Virus record (IMG/VR): IMGVR_UViG_3300033144_002169 | Location: 1 to 47,465 of that record | Source: a virus | Strand: one strand, 5' to 3' | DNA: 47,465 bases | Part shown: one piece after another, positions 1,222 through 45,683 of the stretch | How positions within the stretch are numbered: position 1 is the stretch's first letter | Layout: every line of letters starts with the position of its first letter | The notes under the pieces: model-generated | What the model was told of the DNA's origin: nothing | Database searches by the model: none | Seen by the model: only the letters and a program-made list of their open reading frames with translations | Made by a program: the position numbers and the translations under genes

Positions 1222-1550
1222 TGAAAGACCGAGAACAATACGAGGACTTGGTTCGGAGACGCGACATCATCCGAGGATTGATGGATAGGACTCGCGACCA
1301 ACTGGAAGATGCGATTGCCGAATCTGAGGAGACCAAGGAGTGTGGCCCCTCACTGATACTCAGAATTCAGTATCTCACGCTACAGGCCAATGTCCTGGTG
1401 AGGGTCATGGACAAGCTGGTGGAAGAGAGTGCCTCGTTTGTTCGGGAGTTGCATACTAAGAACACGGACGCGATTGCTCGACGAGTTGCGCCACCTATAG
1501 ACCCTACTGAGATCGACGTACCAGACTTCATGCCTGACTCGCTACTATGA
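1221..1550 (+). CDS. hypothetical coiled-coil protein
   Basis: About 109 residues starting at ATG 1221, one base overlapping the preceding stop. The sequence is mostly predicted helix (MKDREQYEDLVRRRDIIRG..., then VLVRVMDKLVEESASFV) with heptad-like spacing of hydrophobic residues, followed by a Pro/Asp-rich tail (PPIDPTEIDVPDFMPDSLL). No transmembrane segment or signal peptide. It ends at TGA 1548-1550, inside the ATGA overlap with the GGDEF gene, so the two are probably co-translated. No family recognised; a role with the GGDEF protein is only a guess from the overlap. Confidence 0.65.
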   Translation: MKDREQYEDLVRRRDIIRGLMDRTRDQLEDAIAESEETKECGPSLILRIQYLTLQANVLVRVMDKLVEESASFVRELHTKNTDAIARRVAPPIDPTEIDVPDFMPDSLL

Positions 1551-2062
1551 CCGACGCGAACCAACCTACTGAACATGACCACTCAACCTTCATGCAGATG
1601 AAGGAAGCGCAGATCGCCGCTGAGGAGCGGGCTGATAGATTCTTACTAGAGGCCGATACTTGCCAGCTCACCGGCATGCTGAACAGGCGCGGACTAATGC
1701 GCAGGACGAACAACCGAGACTGGGGATGGTACGTCGTCGCCGATCTCGATGGCTTCAAGACGGCGCAGGACAAGCCCGGACGAGGCCACGCATACGGCGA
1801 CGCGACCCTTCAAGAGTTCGCCGACTACATACTCACGAACACTCGCCACCGAGACCTGCGGGCACGCGACCTGATCGCAGCCCGCACGGGCGGGGACGAG
1901 TTTACCGTCTGGACCGAAACCCGAACAGGCGCTCGGCGGATCAAGGAGGCTCTCAGAGAGTGGGTATCCGTCGATACCGAAGTAACCGCTTCGGCAGGCA
2001 TCGGGCAGACGCCCGAAGCTGCGGACGCGGCATGTTACATGGACAAAAAACGAAAGAACTAA
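1547..2062 (+). CDS. stand-alone GGDEF-domain protein (diguanylate cyclase-like)
   Basis: 171 residues, the size of a minimal GGDEF domain with a ~35-residue helical N-terminus. Visible family marks: LTGMLNRRGL (residues 41-50), metal/substrate loop DLDGFK (66-71), GHAYGD (80-85), intact R-T-GGDEF (GGDEF at 115-119), and the C-terminal SAGIG...ADAACYMDKKRKN (149-171) matching the usual S-x-G-I-A...AD-x-A-L-Y-x-A-K end. In the usual K-x-I-N-D, the Asn is replaced (KTAQD) and a 4-residue insertion precedes GHAYGD, so activity is not certain. No I-site RxxD is obvious just before GGDEF. No sensor or membrane segment: it should be cytosolic. Family members make cyclic di-GMP; some relatives make other cyclic dinucleotides. 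It may perturb host second-messenger signalling. Confidence in the fold is high, in catalysis moderate. Confidence 0.85.
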   Translation: MTDANQPTEHDHSTFMQMKEAQIAAEERADRFLLEADTCQLTGMLNRRGLMRRTNNRDWGWYVVADLDGFKTAQDKPGRGHAYGDATLQEFADYILTNTRHRDLRARDLIAARTGGDEFTVWTETRTGARRIKEALREWVSVDTEVTASAGIGQTPEAADAACYMDKKRKN

Positions 2063-20173: not shown

Positions 20174-20731
20174 TCAGAGTTCAAACCCGATGTCGGTAAC
20201 GCTCGTCTCTGACCTCGTGGCAGGATCCAAGTCGATCGCTGAGAGCAACCCGCGCTCGAACGTGCGCAGCCCCACGTCGTCGGCACGCTGGGACGCGCCC
20301 TGTGCAAGTCGATCGAAGAACGGGCGCGGGCGGCTAGGCCCCACCGCGTCCACGACATACATAAACGCCCTCCCGCCCCGTCCCGCGCGCTCCCGATTCC
20401 TGCGCAGCCCCTCGCGGTACTGCTCCTCGGTGAGCCTCCGCACGTCCGTCTCCTTCACGGGCCGACCGTTGCGAAGACGGGGATCATCGTTCGGGTCGTC
20501 GAAGAAGACCAGCTTGCGGGCGTTGACAGGTGAGACGGACCCGCGCCCGTCGTGATACCAGACCGCCCAGTAGTGCGGGATGAAGAGATCCGCGCGCTGC
20601 TCCGATTCGTTGATGATGAGCCGGATGGCAGCCCGCAACGTCTTCGAGCCGATCGACTTCCGCACGAGCCGTAGCTCGCGCTCGCCGATCTCTTCAAGCA
20701 CCTTGCGTGTGAGCCTCTTAGGGTCGATCAC
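20174..20731 (-). CDS. putative neck / head-tail completion protein
   Basis: 185 residues on the minus strand, starting at GTG 20731, overlapping the portal stop by one base (TAGTG). Readable features: a helical N-terminus with RELRLVRKSIGSKTLRAAIRLIIN, then HYWAVWYHDGRGSVSP and VGPSRPRPFFDRL, a pattern like HK97 gp10-type tail-completion proteins (central HDG loop and a late P-F-F). It follows the portal gene in the same operon, consistent with a head-tail joint. No clear alternative role; the family call is tentative. Confidence 0.45.
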   Translation of the reverse strand: MIDPKRLTRKVLEEIGERELRLVRKSIGSKTLRAAIRLIINESEQRADLFIPHYWAVWYHDGRGSVSPVNARKLVFFDDPNDDPRLRNGRPVKETDVRRLTEEQYREGLRRNRERAGRGGRAFMYVVDAVGPSRPRPFFDRLAQGASQRADDVGLRTFERGLLSAIDLDPATRSETSVTDIGFEL

Positions 20732-22335
20732 TACTTACCTTGCCTACGCCCGATCTCGGCGTTCCCTGCCTGCGGAGCCTTGCGGCCTATGGCAGCTTGG
20801 TCCGATCGCGACATGGACGGCGAGCGGGTGGCCTTCGGATCGCCGGGCTTGCGGTCCCGCGCACCTTCGAGCAGGCCGTCGTCAGGGTTGCGACCCGAGC
20901 CCGCGATAGGCTCGGCCATGCCCGCCATGGTGTTCTGAGCACCGAGCGTCATGCCGTCGAGGATGGTGGCGAACCCGTTGCCCGGCTGGATGAACTGAGG
21001 CACGCCATTGTCGTCCATAGGCTTCGCGCTCTTCGCGACCCATAGATCCTTGCCGAGCGCCTTCGAGCCTCCGGTCGGCTGCGCGAACTTGATACCCTCA
21101 CCACCAAGGGTGCAGGAGAACACGCGCGAGAAGTTCTTCTGCGCTTGACCCAGCTTCCTCATCTGGAAGGTCAACATGGCGTTCGGTCCTTCGTTCGCCG
21201 CGCCGATCTTGCCGGGCAACGCGATGTTGGCGAGCTGCGGCGGCATGCCGTGGGCGGTCGCGATACGCATGTCGAGCGTGCCCGACTTCTCGGAGAAGCC
21301 GCTGTTCCCAGCGTCCTCCATCGCGAGCTTCTCAATCTGCACGGTCGTCTCCTCTGGGTTGCCGGGTATGTGGACGCCCTGCGCCTTGTGCGAGTTGCCG
21401 ATGCCTTGGTTCGCCTTGAGCATCGTCTCGATCTTCGACCAGCACCCGCCGATGTTCTTGCCTAGCAGGAACAGGAGGAACTCCGGGACACCCCGGTTGA
21501 AGTAGAAGTCGAACTCGTGTTGGGTCATGCACTGGACCAGCTCGATCGAAGGCACCGCGCTCATGTAGTCGGGGTAGCCGTAGTACGCCGAGCGGTTGGT
21601 GCTCTGCCTGATGTGGATGACCTCGCTGTTCACGATCGAGCCACCGAGCACGGAGACTGTACTGCGGTCACTCGGCAGGATCGCGTCGTTGGCGGGCGAG
21701 TTGTCGATCCCGTCCAGGTCGCTGTCGGCCTCTTGGTCGATCTCGCCGAAGCGCCCCTTGAGATCCTCCAGGTCGCCGAACTTCGCGAGCACGCGCGTGT
21801 CGGCTGCATCCTGCTCACCCTCGACGATGTAGTGGTACAGGTTGGCGCTGTCCTCCTCCTCGACCTCGATGTGGATGCCAGCGGACTCGATGTGGTGGAG
21901 CCCGGTCACGAGCCCCTTGTCTTCGTCGTCGCCGTACACCACTTCGAGGAAGCACTCGCCTGTCTCGAAGTAGTCTAGCGCCAGAGCGTCCAGCGAGTCC
22001 TGCCACGAGAACCTCGTCAGCGGGTCAAGCGTGTCGTGGATGTCTTGCTCGCGGTGGCCGAGGCCGACTGTGCTCGACACCTTGGCGTCGATACAGATGG
22101 CGTGCGTGGGGTTGAAGTCCTCCAGATCGCGCGCCGTCATCTTGTCGATGAGGTGGGACTTCTTGCCCACGCTGATGCCCTGATTGGTCTCACCGCGCTC
22201 AGGGTCTTCGGCGGCGATCTTGGCCGCCTTCTTGAGCAGGGTGAAGAGAGTCGAGCCCTCCCCACCATGGAGGTCGGGCGTGTCGGCCCGGGACGAGATC
22301 AGCTTCATCTCGCCGGGCAAGTTGGTGTCGGTCAT
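20731..22335 (-). CDS. phage portal protein
   Basis: 534 residues, starting at ATG 22335. The middle (YYGYPDYMSAVPSIELVQCMTQHEFDFYFNRGVPEFLLFLL) and the later ATAHGMPPQLANIAL...NEGPNAMLTFQMRKLGQAQKNF are typical of PBSX/HK97-type portal proteins, the dodecamer through which DNA enters and tail attaches. The C-terminal 70 residues are low-complexity and Gly/Pro/Arg-rich. Length suits the family. It lies on the strand opposite to the capsid operon, with its start facing promoter 5, which is unusual. The leader has a TCCCAA/TTGGGA hairpin (22367-22382). Confidence 0.8.
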   Translation of the reverse strand: MTDTNLPGEMKLISSRADTPDLHGGEGSTLFTLLKKAAKIAAEDPERGETNQGISVGKKSHLIDKMTARDLEDFNPTHAICIDAKVSSTVGLGHREQDIHDTLDPLTRFSWQDSLDALALDYFETGECFLEVVYGDDEDKGLVTGLHHIESAGIHIEVEEEDSANLYHYIVEGEQDAADTRVLAKFGDLEDLKGRFGEIDQEADSDLDGIDNSPANDAILPSDRSTVSVLGGSIVNSEVIHIRQSTNRSAYYGYPDYMSAVPSIELVQCMTQHEFDFYFNRGVPEFLLFLLGKNIGGCWSKIETMLKANQGIGNSHKAQGVHIPGNPEETTVQIEKLAMEDAGNSGFSEKSGTLDMRIATAHGMPPQLANIALPGKIGAANEGPNAMLTFQMRKLGQAQKNFSRVFSCTLGGEGIKFAQPTGGSKALGKDLWVAKSAKPMDDNGVPQFIQPGNGFATILDGMTLGAQNTMAGMAEPIAGSGRNPDDGLLEGARDRKPGDPKATRSPSMSRSDQAAIGRKAPQAGNAEIGRRQGK

Positions 22336-25998: not shown

Positions 25999-26559
25999 AT
26001 GGCCGCACCCTTATTCATCACCGACGAAGCCACGCTCAAGACCCGCCTCCGTCTGTCCGCCGTACCCGCGTCCGCTCTGGACACGGAGGCGATCATCGAC
26101 GAGGCGATCCTTCGTGCGCGCGTACGCTTCTATACGGACTTGGGTGCGTCCAGGACCAACGTGCTCGTTGCCCTCCCCTTCACGGAGACGCCGACCACGG
26201 ACGACGAGATCCTTCGAGCCATCTGCAACACCACGGAGGCGAAGCTGGTCTACTGTGGGCTGCTTCGCCTCCTCCCGAACACGTTCATGGATGCCTCTGG
26301 CGACGTAAACTCTCGTTGGCAGGAAGAGGCCCCGACGCGCGAGCGCGGAGGCTTCGAGCTGACCGAGGAGCTAACCCGCTGCGAGCAGGAGATCGTGCAT
26401 GCGATGGTAATGCTGGCCGCGCCGAACGCGACCGAGTGTGACGATGCGCAAGTCATCGACGGCACGCCGGACTGTCAGACCAGCTTTCCCGCGAACACTC
26501 CGCGCATCGGCATGAGCCTCAGAGGAACCAGCGGCATCAACCCACCGCGCGAGGACTAG
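25999..26559 (+). CDS. head-tail connector (adaptor) protein, gp6-like
   Basis: 186 residues from ATG 25999 with AGGAG upstream. The helical N-terminus (TDEATLKTRLRLSAV...LDTEAIIDEAILRARVRFYTDLG) followed by another helical pair (EILRAICNTTEAKLVYCGLLRLLP) fits head-tail adaptor proteins that sit on the portal ring. The C-terminus is Pro/Asp/Cys-rich. Gene order after the capsid gene supports this; sequence evidence alone is moderate. Confidence 0.5.
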   Translation: MAAPLFITDEATLKTRLRLSAVPASALDTEAIIDEAILRARVRFYTDLGASRTNVLVALPFTETPTTDDEILRAICNTTEAKLVYCGLLRLLPNTFMDASGDVNSRWQEEAPTRERGGFELTEELTRCEQEIVHAMVMLAAPNATECDDAQVIDGTPDCQTSFPANTPRIGMSLRGTSGINPPRED

Positions 26560-41764: not shown

Positions 41765-42223
41765 CTACGGACACTCCTCCATGTGCGACTCGTCCCCGTC
41801 GTTCAGGGCCTCCAGGACGATCCTGTAGCACCTAGCGAACGCCACGCCCCACATCGGGCCATGACCGTCGTATCCCTCGTCCCGGGAGGCGTCCCACACC
41901 ATCGCGTGCGCCCACTCATGCTCCAAGGTAGAGATGAGGCCCTGGAAGTGCTGCCGCGAGTCCACCAAGATGACGTATTGTTCAGCCTCCTCGTCCCACG
42001 AGCACAGGCCCCAGTACGCGCCGGGAATCTGGACGACCTCGACCAGCACGTCGGCGTTGAGAGGGCATTCGACGGTCAGGACTTCGACGGCCTCGCGAAA
42101 GCGTGCTTCCCGCCAATCCTCTACGGTCTCGACAGTCGGTAGCTCGGGAGCGAGCGGCTCGAAGGTTGGAGTGCTCGCGCACGAGACCAGCAAAAACAGT
42201 GACGGGAGAGGAGCGTGTTTCAT
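41765..42223 (-). CDS. lipoprotein with SprT-like zinc metallopeptidase domain
   Basis: 152 residues from ATG 42223, in an ATGA overlap with the zinc-ribbon gene. Signal peptide with lipobox LVSC (C15) and CASTP after it. The mature part holds HEWAH (102-106) and GHGPMW (H121), the zinc-binding HExxH plus later His of SprT-like or similar metallopeptidases. It should be anchored on a membrane facing the periplasm and cut proteins or peptides there. It is the last gene of the terminase operon. A role in lysis, exclusion or envelope change is inference. Confidence 0.75.
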   Translation of the reverse strand: MKHAPLPSLFLLVSCASTPTFEPLAPELPTVETVEDWREARFREAVEVLTVECPLNADVLVEVVQIPGAYWGLCSWDEEAEQYVILVDSRQHFQGLISTLEHEWAHAMVWDASRDEGYDGHGPMWGVAFARCYRIVLEALNDGDESHMEECP

Positions 42224-42414
42224 ATTACATTTCGAGCGCGGGCTGCTTGTGCTTTTGCCCCATCGCCCCGTGCAGTTACGATAGTGGCCTGCGTGGACAG
42301 TGCGTGGACCCTTCCACACTTCTGACAAGTGGCGCGCTGGAATTTCTCCGACGCTACCGGGTAGGTGTGTGACACTCGAAGAGTGCCCTTGCATTCAGGT
42401 ATTGCGCAGTTCAT
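42220..42414 (-). CDS. small zinc-ribbon protein
   Basis: 64 residues from ATG 42414 (ATGA overlap with the terminase stop). C3-x4-C8 ... C30-x2-C33 with CAIPECKGTLRVSHTYP and FQRATCQKCGRVH resembles zinc ribbons of NrdR or Ogr/Delta-type small regulators. The tail is Ala/Arg-rich. It could bind DNA or a protein and perhaps affect late transcription; this is inferred from the fold alone. It ends in an ATGA overlap with the lipoprotein gene. Confidence 0.65.
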   Translation of the reverse strand: MNCAIPECKGTLRVSHTYPVASEKFQRATCQKCGRVHALSTQATIVTARGDGAKAQAARARNVI

Positions 42415-43868
42415 CTCTTGCGATGGATTCTGGTTCCCACAGTGTGTGTATTCCCGCCGGACTGGACCAACCCTCCGGTCAGGCCGATGTGTGGGTAGAA
42501 GGCGTACACAATCGCGTCGGCCCGGTCGGGCGACTCGCTGACCTCCAAGCGCTTCCTCCATTCATCCTTCGTCTCGACCTTGAGTTTCCCCTTGCGGTCG
42601 GTGTAGTATTGGCGCGTGCTTAGTTGCTTGAGCAGCCGCGCATCGTTAGGAAGGCGGACAATGTGCTCGCGCACGAGGTTCCGCAGCATCCACCATGCCT
42701 CGCTGTAGAGGTCGGCGAACATGGCCGAGTCGTGAGGGCGCGCTTGCGTGTGGAACTCCAGCACGTTCTTGCCCCCCTCATGGAAGGAGTGCATGACACC
42801 TTGGCCGAGACCGCCCGCATCTGGGATGAACCAACAATCCTCGTCGGACCAGTTGTTATCCCGCTGTAGCGCAAACGCTCTGTCCGTGACGCTTATGGGC
42901 TCGGTCTTCACGAACGTCTCGAACTTGGTGATCGCGAGCCCGTGGCGCTGCGCGATGACCGACTCGTCCCCGCCGAAGCGCGAGTAGTCTATGCCGATGG
43001 CCTTGTTGACCACGAGCAGGTCCGTGATGCTGGCGCAGCCTAGTAGGTCCGTCTTGGTGCAGATCGTCAGGTCCCGCAGGCCCATGACGTTGTTCGGGTC
43101 CTCGTGCGGGAACTCGCCGAGCACGCGGATGCGGTACTGGTCGGAGTCGCGCCCGTACTCCCATTCGAGCTGCTTGTTGCGGCTCGGGGAGACGATGTGT
43201 GGATAGTCGTGCGCCGTGTCCTCCGCGTTGAAGCAGAGTCGGTGCCACTGGTCAGCCTGCGAGGTGAAGAAGTTGTAGAACTCGCACGAGCTGGTGTTCG
43301 GGTTGCCAATCGCGAGAAACAGCGCGTCGGGGTTGGACAGCGTGCCCTTGATCGTCTCGATGATGTTCGCCGCGACACCGGAAGCCTCGTCCGCGATGAA
43401 CGTCAGGCGCTTCTCGTGGATCCCCTGGAGGTTTTCCGGGCGCGTGGCCGTCGCGGTGCGGATGCCCCACATCTTCGAGCCGTTGATCTCGACTTTGGTG
43501 CCGTACGTCTTGCACATCTTCTGGAGGACGGGGTGCGCCTCCTTGAGCATACGCGAGCACTCGTCGATCCACTGTTTACACTGACGCATCGACGGGCTCG
43601 TGACGATGCAGAGCGCGTCGGGGTGGCGCAGGCAACGCCAAAGCGCCACGATGACCGAGATCGAGGTCTTCCCCGGCCCCTGGCCCGAGCGCAAGGCGAT
43701 CCGCTTGAGTCTCTTCTCCACCGGCAGCCAAGATTCGAGCTGAACGATGTCCAGCAGCTCCTCCTGCTGCCAAGTGTAGTCGAAATTCATCGCCTCGCGC
43801 GCGAAGATGCGGATGTCACCACGCCAACGCTCGTACAGCGGCTCGAATTGTCGTGAGAAGCGCCCCAT
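42411..43868 (-). CDS. terL: terminase large subunit
   Basis: 485 residues from ATG 43868. ATPase: Walker A SGQGPGKTS (61-69, K67), Walker B TFIADE (156-161). RNase H-like nuclease: GIDYSRFGGDE (D294), FIPDAGG (D350) and SPDRADAIVYAF (D448, D451). All needed residues are present. It packages DNA into heads through the portal. It lies on the minus strand 20 kb away from the portal. The gene just upstream codes for a degenerate copy of its ATPase domain. Confidence 0.9.
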   Translation of the reverse strand: MGRFSRQFEPLYERWRGDIRIFAREAMNFDYTWQQEELLDIVQLESWLPVEKRLKRIALRSGQGPGKTSISVIVALWRCLRHPDALCIVTSPSMRQCKQWIDECSRMLKEAHPVLQKMCKTYGTKVEINGSKMWGIRTATATRPENLQGIHEKRLTFIADEASGVAANIIETIKGTLSNPDALFLAIGNPNTSSCEFYNFFTSQADQWHRLCFNAEDTAHDYPHIVSPSRNKQLEWEYGRDSDQYRIRVLGEFPHEDPNNVMGLRDLTICTKTDLLGCASITDLLVVNKAIGIDYSRFGGDESVIAQRHGLAITKFETFVKTEPISVTDRAFALQRDNNWSDEDCWFIPDAGGLGQGVMHSFHEGGKNVLEFHTQARPHDSAMFADLYSEAWWMLRNLVREHIVRLPNDARLLKQLSTRQYYTDRKGKLKVETKDEWRKRLEVSESPDRADAIVYAFYPHIGLTGGLVQSGGNTHTVGTRIHRKR

Positions 43869-43871
43869 GAC

Positions 43872-44384
43872 CTACCACATCACGATGTGGCGCGCGCCCT
43901 CCAGGTTCCGGTAGGTGTCTATGACCCTCATGGTCTCGCAGAAGTCTGGTTCGGAGCTTCGCGCGCCCAGAATGACGAAGGTGATGGCCTCATCAGGCAG
44001 TCCTTGTAGCCATTCAGGCTTATTCGACACCACTCGAAGCTCGTGACCCGACGCCTCGCCGATCGAGAGACACTTCGAGCCCCTCCAGAGACACACTGAG
44101 GCCAGCGCTGGGTCGATCATGGTCGTCACCTCGCGCAGGAAGAGGAGGAATCGCTGTTCTAGCTCCCTATTGGCCGAGATCACGATGCACTTCGAGCCAG
44201 GCACGCGGAGGAGTCGCCAGAGCGCGGCCAGTGCGACGGCGTTCATGGTCTGCTGGGCCTGGATCTCCTCAACTTCGAGAGGATCCTCGTCCTCGTAGAA
44301 GCGGTGCATCAGCTCGCGCTGGTGCCCGGAGGGCCTAAGACCTAATCGAACGCACAAGTCCTCGGGACTACGCAGACTCGTCAT
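43872..44384 (-). CDS. degenerate terminase-ATPase paralogue (small-terminase position)
   Basis: 170 residues from ATG 44384 (an adjacent ATG 44387 is also possible; GGAG upstream favours the second). Aligned with TerL residues ~25-190: ALWRLLRVPGSKCIVIS / ALWRCLRHPDALCIVTS, RGSKC / NGSKM, PEWLQG...ITFVI / PENLQG...LTFIA. Walker A is lost (AQQTMNAV for GPGKT) and Walker B is TFVILGA without D-E. No nuclease part. It precedes TerL by three bases, where a small terminase is expected, and no other TerS candidate is seen. It could bind TerL as a regulator or act as TerS. It overlaps the membrane coiled-coil gene by 17 bases. Confidence 0.7.
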   Translation of the reverse strand: MTSLRSPEDLCVRLGLRPSGHQRELMHRFYEDEDPLEVEEIQAQQTMNAVALAALWRLLRVPGSKCIVISANRELEQRFLLFLREVTTMIDPALASVCLWRGSKCLSIGEASGHELRVVSNKPEWLQGLPDEAITFVILGARSSEPDFCETMRVIDTYRNLEGARHIVMW

Positions 44385-44682
44385 CATCGTCTCCTTCGTT
44401 CCGCTCGTTGTCAGCATCTTGTACCTCAGTTGGGCGAGCGGGGCATCCCAGCTCGCTGCGCATCGTGGCGTTCTCGACTTCAAGGTGAGCCATTTCGACA
44501 CGAAGGTTGCCCATGCGTCGCTGCATCGACGCCACCACTTTCTCCAATTCACGGATTCTGTCCAGCAGCAGCTCCCGAAAGTCCTTCTTCGCAAGCCGAC
44601 GATTCTCTAGCCACGCGCGGAACCAATGAAGGCCGCCCGCGCCTAGTACGGTCGCGATGGTGTACTTCGCCCATTCGGGCAT
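44368..44682 (-). CDS. membrane-anchored coiled-coil protein (spanin- or holin-like candidate)
   Basis: 104 residues from ATG 44682. A short N-terminal hydrophobic segment (YTIATVLGAGGLHWF) precedes a basic turn and a long coiled coil (DFRELLLDRIRELEKVVASMQRRMGNLRVEMAHLEVENATM), ending in an acidic tail (NERNEGDDDDESA). This is the layout of inner-membrane spanins and of some exclusion proteins. A lipoprotein gene lies just upstream, so an i-spanin/o-spanin pair is possible. No family motif proves it. Confidence 0.55.
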   Translation of the reverse strand: MPEWAKYTIATVLGAGGLHWFRAWLENRRLAKKDFRELLLDRIRELEKVVASMQRRMGNLRVEMAHLEVENATMRSELGCPARPTEVQDADNERNEGDDDDESA

Positions 44683-44718: not shown

Positions 44719-45114
44719 CTACAGGGCGAGTGAGGCGTGAATGTTGACGGACTCGAACAGGCTGCGAAGGCGCGCGGTGTCTTCCATGTAGACCTCGACT
44801 TCGAGCTGCTCCAGACTCCCCTCGGCGGCACGCTGCATGACGAGCATGTCGTGGAGGTGTAAAAGGGGCGCGAGCGAGACCATCAGCGTAACGCCGCTGG
44901 CCTCTGGCACAAGCAGGACTGCGCGAGCGATGTCGGCAGCCGCTTGGACTTCATCGGTGAACTCCAGGCCGTCCTCGTCGGACATCTGGATGGTGCGGTC
45001 GAGCACGCGCTCGATGGTGCGGGCCACGGGGCCTTCGGCGACGGGCACGCTGCCCGGCGACGTGGAGGCGCACGAGGCGAGAACGAGGCTCAAGGTGAGC
45101 AGCAAATTCTTCAT
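44719..45114 (-). CDS. lipoprotein (possible outer-membrane spanin)
   Basis: 131 residues from ATG 45114, in an ATGA overlap with the SPFH gene. MKNLLLTLSLVLASC has a perfect lipobox at C15, followed by ASTSPGSVP. The mature part is acidic and helical (VEVYMEDTARLRSLFESV). It is exported and lipid-anchored. With the membrane coiled-coil gene it might form a spanin pair, but its size is larger than typical o-spanins. The other lipoprotein in this operon has a similar signal sequence (SCAST). Confidence 0.7.
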   Translation of the reverse strand: MKNLLLTLSLVLASCASTSPGSVPVAEGPVARTIERVLDRTIQMSDEDGLEFTDEVQAAADIARAVLLVPEASGVTLMVSLAPLLHLHDMLVMQRAAEGSLEQLEVEVYMEDTARLRSLFESVNIHASLAL

Positions 45115-45683
45115 TCGGCTTCTTCTTCGGTTACGGCCACGCCAGGAACGTCGCCAGAGTGATTGAGGTCGCGCAGTTCGGTTTCGGCAAACGTCGTGAT
45201 GCCGAGCCCTTTGACTTGCACCCCGAAGTAGCGACCCAGCTCCTTCTGTGCGAGTTTAGTGAGTGCCTCTTCGTCGAGGTCTTGGATCTGGTCGAAGGTG
45301 TGCTGCCGGACGAACTTGAGCAAGACCCTCTGCGCGTCAACGAGGAGCCCCTGCTCCGCGTCTTCGTTCGCCATCAGCCACGTCTCGATATTCGTGATGA
45401 TGAAGGCGAACGAGATGCCTACACGCACCGTGGTTCCATCCATCGTGGTCGCTACCACGTCGGACGGCTCCCGGACCTTGCGGCGCACGTTGTCCTTGTA
45501 GACGGTCGTGCGTGCGGAGTGCATCCAGTAACCCCCGGGCTCCAGCAGCTTGATGCGCTTGCCCGTTACCTTCACTCCCAGCTCGTGCGCCTCTATCATC
45601 CTATGATCTGGCACGCACCACGAGATGACCCAGTGGACCAGCTCGTAGACGAGGTGGAAGAGGGTTTCGAGTCCTACCCCCAT
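45111..45683 (-). CDS. SPFH / Band 7 (stomatin-prohibitin) domain protein
   Basis: 190 residues from ATG 45683. An N-terminal hydrophobic helix (LFHLVYELVHWVISWCV) is followed by an SPFH-type core: VKVTGKRIKLLEPGGYWMHSARTTVYKDNVRRKV..., VVATTMDGTTVRVGISFAFIITNIETWL, VLLKFVRQHTFDQI and ELGRYFGVQVKGLGITTFAETELRDL. Such proteins assemble into membrane rings or microdomains (HflK/C, stomatins) and often modulate proteases such as FtsH. In a phage it may protect or alter the host membrane or host protease activity. It overlaps the lipoprotein gene. Confidence 0.75.
   Translation of the reverse strand: MGVGLETLFHLVYELVHWVISWCVPDHRMIEAHELGVKVTGKRIKLLEPGGYWMHSARTTVYKDNVRRKVREPSDVVATTMDGTTVRVGISFAFIITNIETWLMANEDAEQGLLVDAQRVLLKFVRQHTFDQIQDLDEEALTKLAQKELGRYFGVQVKGLGITTFAETELRDLNHSGDVPGVAVTEEEAE

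Follow-up and report, generated by a model that had tools for sequence, protein, structure and literature searches.

A paralogue of the large-terminase ATPase core that lacks the catalytic motifs adjoins TerL in a group of viruses

The TerL locus

We analysed a window of 47,465 nucleotides, which is the entire IMG/VR virus record IMGVR_UViG_3300033144_002169 and possibly an incomplete genome. The gene under study lies on the minus strand, a point absent from the initial annotation, and immediately upstream of the large-terminase gene (TerL). The features discussed below are the following:

43872-44384, minus strand: putative pseudo-ATPase paralogue of TerL, 170 aa (reading frame, BLASTP, predicted fold and alignment)
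42411-43868, minus strand: TerL, 485 aa (PHROG_2 terminase large subunit, 8e-31)
44368-44682, minus strand: gene directly upstream of the paralogue, 104 aa (N-terminal hydrophobic helix and coiled coil)
42220-42414, minus strand: small basic zinc-ribbon protein directly downstream of TerL (sequence)
20731-22335, minus strand: portal protein (PHROG_68, 1.4e-8)

The paralogue coding sequence runs from an ATG at 44384 to a stop at 43872-43874, and an alternative in-frame ATG three bases earlier (44387) would yield a product of 171 aa. The plus strand of the same interval is interrupted by stops. A good Shine-Dalgarno sequence (AAGGAG) precedes the start, and the first 17-20 bases of the gene are shared with the end of the upstream one. 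At the other end, 3 bases separate the paralogue stop from the TerL ATG, which has no clear Shine-Dalgarno sequence of its own. TerL itself has intact motifs: Walker A SGQGPGKT (residues 61-68), Walker B LTFIADE (the DE being residues 160-161) and motif III GNP. The Asp residues of its nuclease half fall in invariant alignment columns.

Most members of the clade have each of the two flanking genes, yet neither occurs in all of them; the paralogue-TerL pair, in contrast, was present in every record found. The upstream product has weak matches to DUF2730 and to a holin-like PHROG; its gene is present in nearly all relatives and was not found in L023. The zinc-ribbon protein, about 64 aa long from a Met at the TerL stop and with a net charge of +7, is kept in most relatives and absent in L017 and L021. 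It may be a DNA-recognition protein or a late regulator. The portal gene lies about 20 kb from TerL, on the minus strand amid plus-strand head genes, and relatives show the same order.

Homology, fold and catalytic motifs

Homology of the paralogue to the ATPase core of the neighbouring TerL is established well beyond chance. BLASTP aligned the two proteins with 42 bits (E 3e-9, 29% identity over 106 aa), and profile-profile comparison gave an E of 4e-8 across 141 columns. A profile built from paralogues only gave the TerLs of the clade 17-40 bits, while the best of 2000 shuffled TerLs reached 7.6. The initial annotation had aligned the product with the ATPase half of TerL over its whole length; the match holds for residues ~13-170 (TerL ~25-187) and leaves out the first ~12. 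No match to the paralogue was found in Pfam, PHROGs, NCBIfam or the PDB sequences.

An AlphaFold2 model of the paralogue, built with 18 homologues, had a pLDDT of 92.8 and a pTM of 0.90. Eight PDB chains matched this fold at E<=0.001, and all of them were TerL. The best match by VIA-align was T4 gp17 residues 110-286 (Z 15.0, rmsd 2.5, 164 residues). DEAD-box helicases and the NAT10 helicase domain followed at Z 11-13, as expected from the RecA-type core common to both. The predicted fold is thus that of a TerL ATPase (the fold of T4 gp17, P74-26, HK97 and Sf6 gp2) which ends at motif III, without lid, nuclease or helix-turn-helix (HTH). An unrelated HTH fold of the TerS kind, against which the initial annotation was to be judged, was not what the prediction returned. 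We also modelled the paralogue and TerL as one read-through chain. In it, TerL repeated the order of secondary-structure elements seen in the paralogue, but the model had a pTM of 0.38, and a contact between the two is not reliable from such a model.

To compare motifs, we aligned 19 paralogues and 19 TerLs. At the Walker A site, every aligned paralogue that covers it carries variable residues and never a Lys. The Walker B Asp-Glu is replaced by Leu-Gly (each position 95%), and the acids are present in 0 of the 19 copies. The destruction of both Walker motifs, noted initially, is therefore borne out across the family, and no homologue with intact Walker motifs appeared among the 19. Every copy stops at the position of motif III, so that the lid and motif III are gone in addition to the RNase H-like nuclease domain whose loss had been reported. 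The ALWR helix persists as in TerL, and a Gln (residue 22) still occupies the Q-motif site. Judged from its sequence, the paralogue has lost ATP catalysis, with both the P-loop and the Walker B acids gone.

A C-terminal Trp is invariant in the paralogues. In two relatives, L020 and L025, the coupling is looser, and a gap or a small ORF separates the paralogue from TerL. The Trp is present there as well, and thus its conservation does not simply follow from the TerL start site.

Distribution and descent

Related TerLs, 65-94% identical to that of the window, have upstream sequence in 25 viral records, and the paralogue was present in every one; some of these records are near-identical, and they hold about 19-20 distinct paralogue sequences. 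Identity to the window copy ranged from 23 to 82%, and the paralogue profile matched 13 of 13 longer records. Pairwise dN/dS ranged from 0.19 to 0.49 in the paralogue and from 0.07 to 0.19 in TerL. The paralogue is under purifying selection and is no relic. Conservation, structure and dN/dS ruled out a chance ORF. In L003, L004 and L006, the TerL matches that seemed overlong proved to span the paralogue together with the TerL linked to it, and introns were ruled out.

Outside the clade, TerL identity falls to 33% or less. None of 166 distant TerL loci had a second TerL-like ORF within about 2.5 kb, while the paralogue profile recognised TerL itself in 147 of them. With the paralogue alone as query, there were no matches in viral_contigs, phages or plasmids. 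The TerL clade had no close-range match in GTDB genome contigs, and thus no host is assignable.

In a tree, the paralogues formed one clade and their own TerLs another (88/78), with long paralogue branches. The exact point of duplication is unsure because of these long branches. The paralogue profile scores the TerLs of its own clade above most distant TerLs, which favours a duplication from the clade's own TerL.

The small-terminase slot and the proposed role of the paralogue

We wondered whether the slot upstream of TerL is that of a small terminase (TerS). In distant relatives, at least 32 of 60 genes at this position match a TerS PHROG, and in the clade the paralogue adjoins the related TerL in every record, as the assignment to the small-terminase position had implied. 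No small ORF of the window matched a TerS PHROG, and the paralogue itself had no match to a known TerS sequence family. Three TerS families (phrog_2606, 509 and 51) were absent from the window and six relatives, where positive controls matched. The initial statement that no ordinary small terminase is seen thus agrees with these scans; it remains an absence claim, since TerS is very divergent and its profiles can miss members. At matched TerL divergence, median identities were 27, 31, 38, 46 and 58% for the paralogue versus 31, 36, 50, 63 and 66% for outgroup TerS. The tempo of the paralogue is therefore close to that of TerS, its identity being somewhat lower. Most members are neutral to acidic, so the paralogue is no obvious DNA binder.

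The paralogue shares with TerS its slot immediately upstream of TerL, its size (~19 kDa), its close coupling to TerL and a similar rate of divergence. Unlike TerS, it is predicted to be a RecA-like alpha/beta protein rather than an HTH joined to a helical oligomerisation core. It shows significant similarity to the adjacent TerL but, unlike it, has no P-loop, Walker B acids, motif III, lid or nuclease. Split or fragmented TerL genes, seen as short pieces in a viral structure library, also include a short separate gene for the ATPase core. Here, however, a complete TerL lies alongside and the catalytic motifs are missing from the short copy, so the paralogue does not form half of a split enzyme. 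Because it lacks defining features of TerL (catalytic motifs and nuclease) as well as of TerS (fold), we class it as neither. We found no precedent in open-access papers.

TerS stimulates the TerL ATPase through a poorly understood contact mechanism, and the HTH is its most conserved feature (PMC9611059). The paralogue has no HTH, yet it is a dead copy of the very domain that TerS targets; a TerL-binding pseudo-ATPase is thus the most likely mechanism. Probably, the paralogue is a TerL-derived pseudo-enzyme that works like a TerS. We favour, by a narrow balance of probability for the account as a whole, a pseudo-ATPase partner of TerL which arose by duplication and took a small-terminase role in regulation. 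That a pseudo-enzyme derived by large-terminase duplication has taken the place of the small terminase, so that a dead copy of the motor controls the live one, we hold to be an even call. The initial proposal that the gene replaces TerS or regulates packaging is therefore plausible and the best-supported reading, with TerL binding, regulation, replacement of TerS and co-translation being what we infer of the role.

In the favoured account, the group's own TerL would have been duplicated in an ancestor, with a copy of its nucleotide-binding core coming to lie directly ahead of the gene. This copy would then have lost ATP catalysis, lid and nuclease while retaining the fold. It is probably produced together with TerL, by co-translation, and would bind TerL, most likely through the surfaces by which TerL ATPase domains contact each other. 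At initiation, the bound paralogue may set the timing of ATP hydrolysis or DNA cutting by TerL, which is the regulatory half of the TerS job. Recognition of phage DNA would then fall to TerL, to a further protein (a candidate is the conserved zinc ribbon encoded downstream of TerL) or to none. The looser coupling to TerL in L020 and L025 and the neutral to acidic character of most members count against this account.

If true, the arrangement would represent a new architecture in viral DNA packaging, and it would mean that the motor itself can supply the substitute for an ordinary small terminase. With a dead TerL-type core in the TerS slot, one could ask directly whether contact with the ATPase domain is enough for activation, with no need of an HTH ring on DNA. 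Viral motors would also gain a clear instance of a pseudo-enzyme.

Other explanations have to be weighed. The paralogue may be a partner or regulator of TerL while a divergent ordinary TerS is encoded elsewhere in the genome, in which case nothing has been replaced. The divergence of TerS sequences argues for this, as do conserved small genes of no assigned function, for example 2124-2372, 20174-20731 and 25999-26559. However, no tested small ORF of the window matched TerS, the three families were empty in seven genomes in which the controls worked, and the usual slot is already occupied. The 20174-20731 protein, moreover, appears by sequence to resemble a head-tail completion protein and not an HTH protein. 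We consider such a hidden TerS rather unlikely. Alternatively, the paralogues could act not at initiation but as inactive subunits within the TerL ring, forming a mixed motor. The retained ATPase core fold is consistent with this idea, but the missing lid and nuclease domains speak against it, and we regard it as improbable.

A decoy function seems more doubtful still: as a TerL mimic, the paralogue would saturate host defences of the Avs type that sense TerL. Avs3 binds TerL, the structure of Avs3 with a phage terminase (8dgc) is among the fold matches, and the paralogue diverges faster than TerL. Yet ordinary outgroup TerS proteins roughly match its tempo, so that a special arms-race explanation is unnecessary, and each relative has the gene, always next to TerL, which sets it apart from typical accessory anti-defence genes. 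We therefore think a decoy very improbable. If TerL had been duplicated in part and the copy were a non-functional relic, this could account for the short gene, the lost motifs and a frameshift near the end in 1 of 25 copies, but such a relic is extremely unlikely: dN/dS is well below 1, the fold is predicted with high confidence, and the Trp is invariant and the Leu-Gly conserved in a gene retained by all relatives down to 23% identity. The frameshifted copy (L011, 4318-4826) is broken near residue 136; L011 is the sole such relative, and an assembly error could explain it.

Three other genes of the window are recorded here. A small SPFH/Band-7-like protein (45111-45683, minus strand; HflK model, 8e-6) belongs to the cassette upstream of TerL. 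Downstream of TerL lies a putative SprT-like zinc protease (41765-42394, minus strand; Pfam, 2e-4), probably with a lipoprotein signal. Finally, the phage encodes a GGDEF protein of the diguanylate cyclase type (1547-2062, plus strand; Pfam GGDEF, 8e-11), which is present in 5 of 6 relatives.
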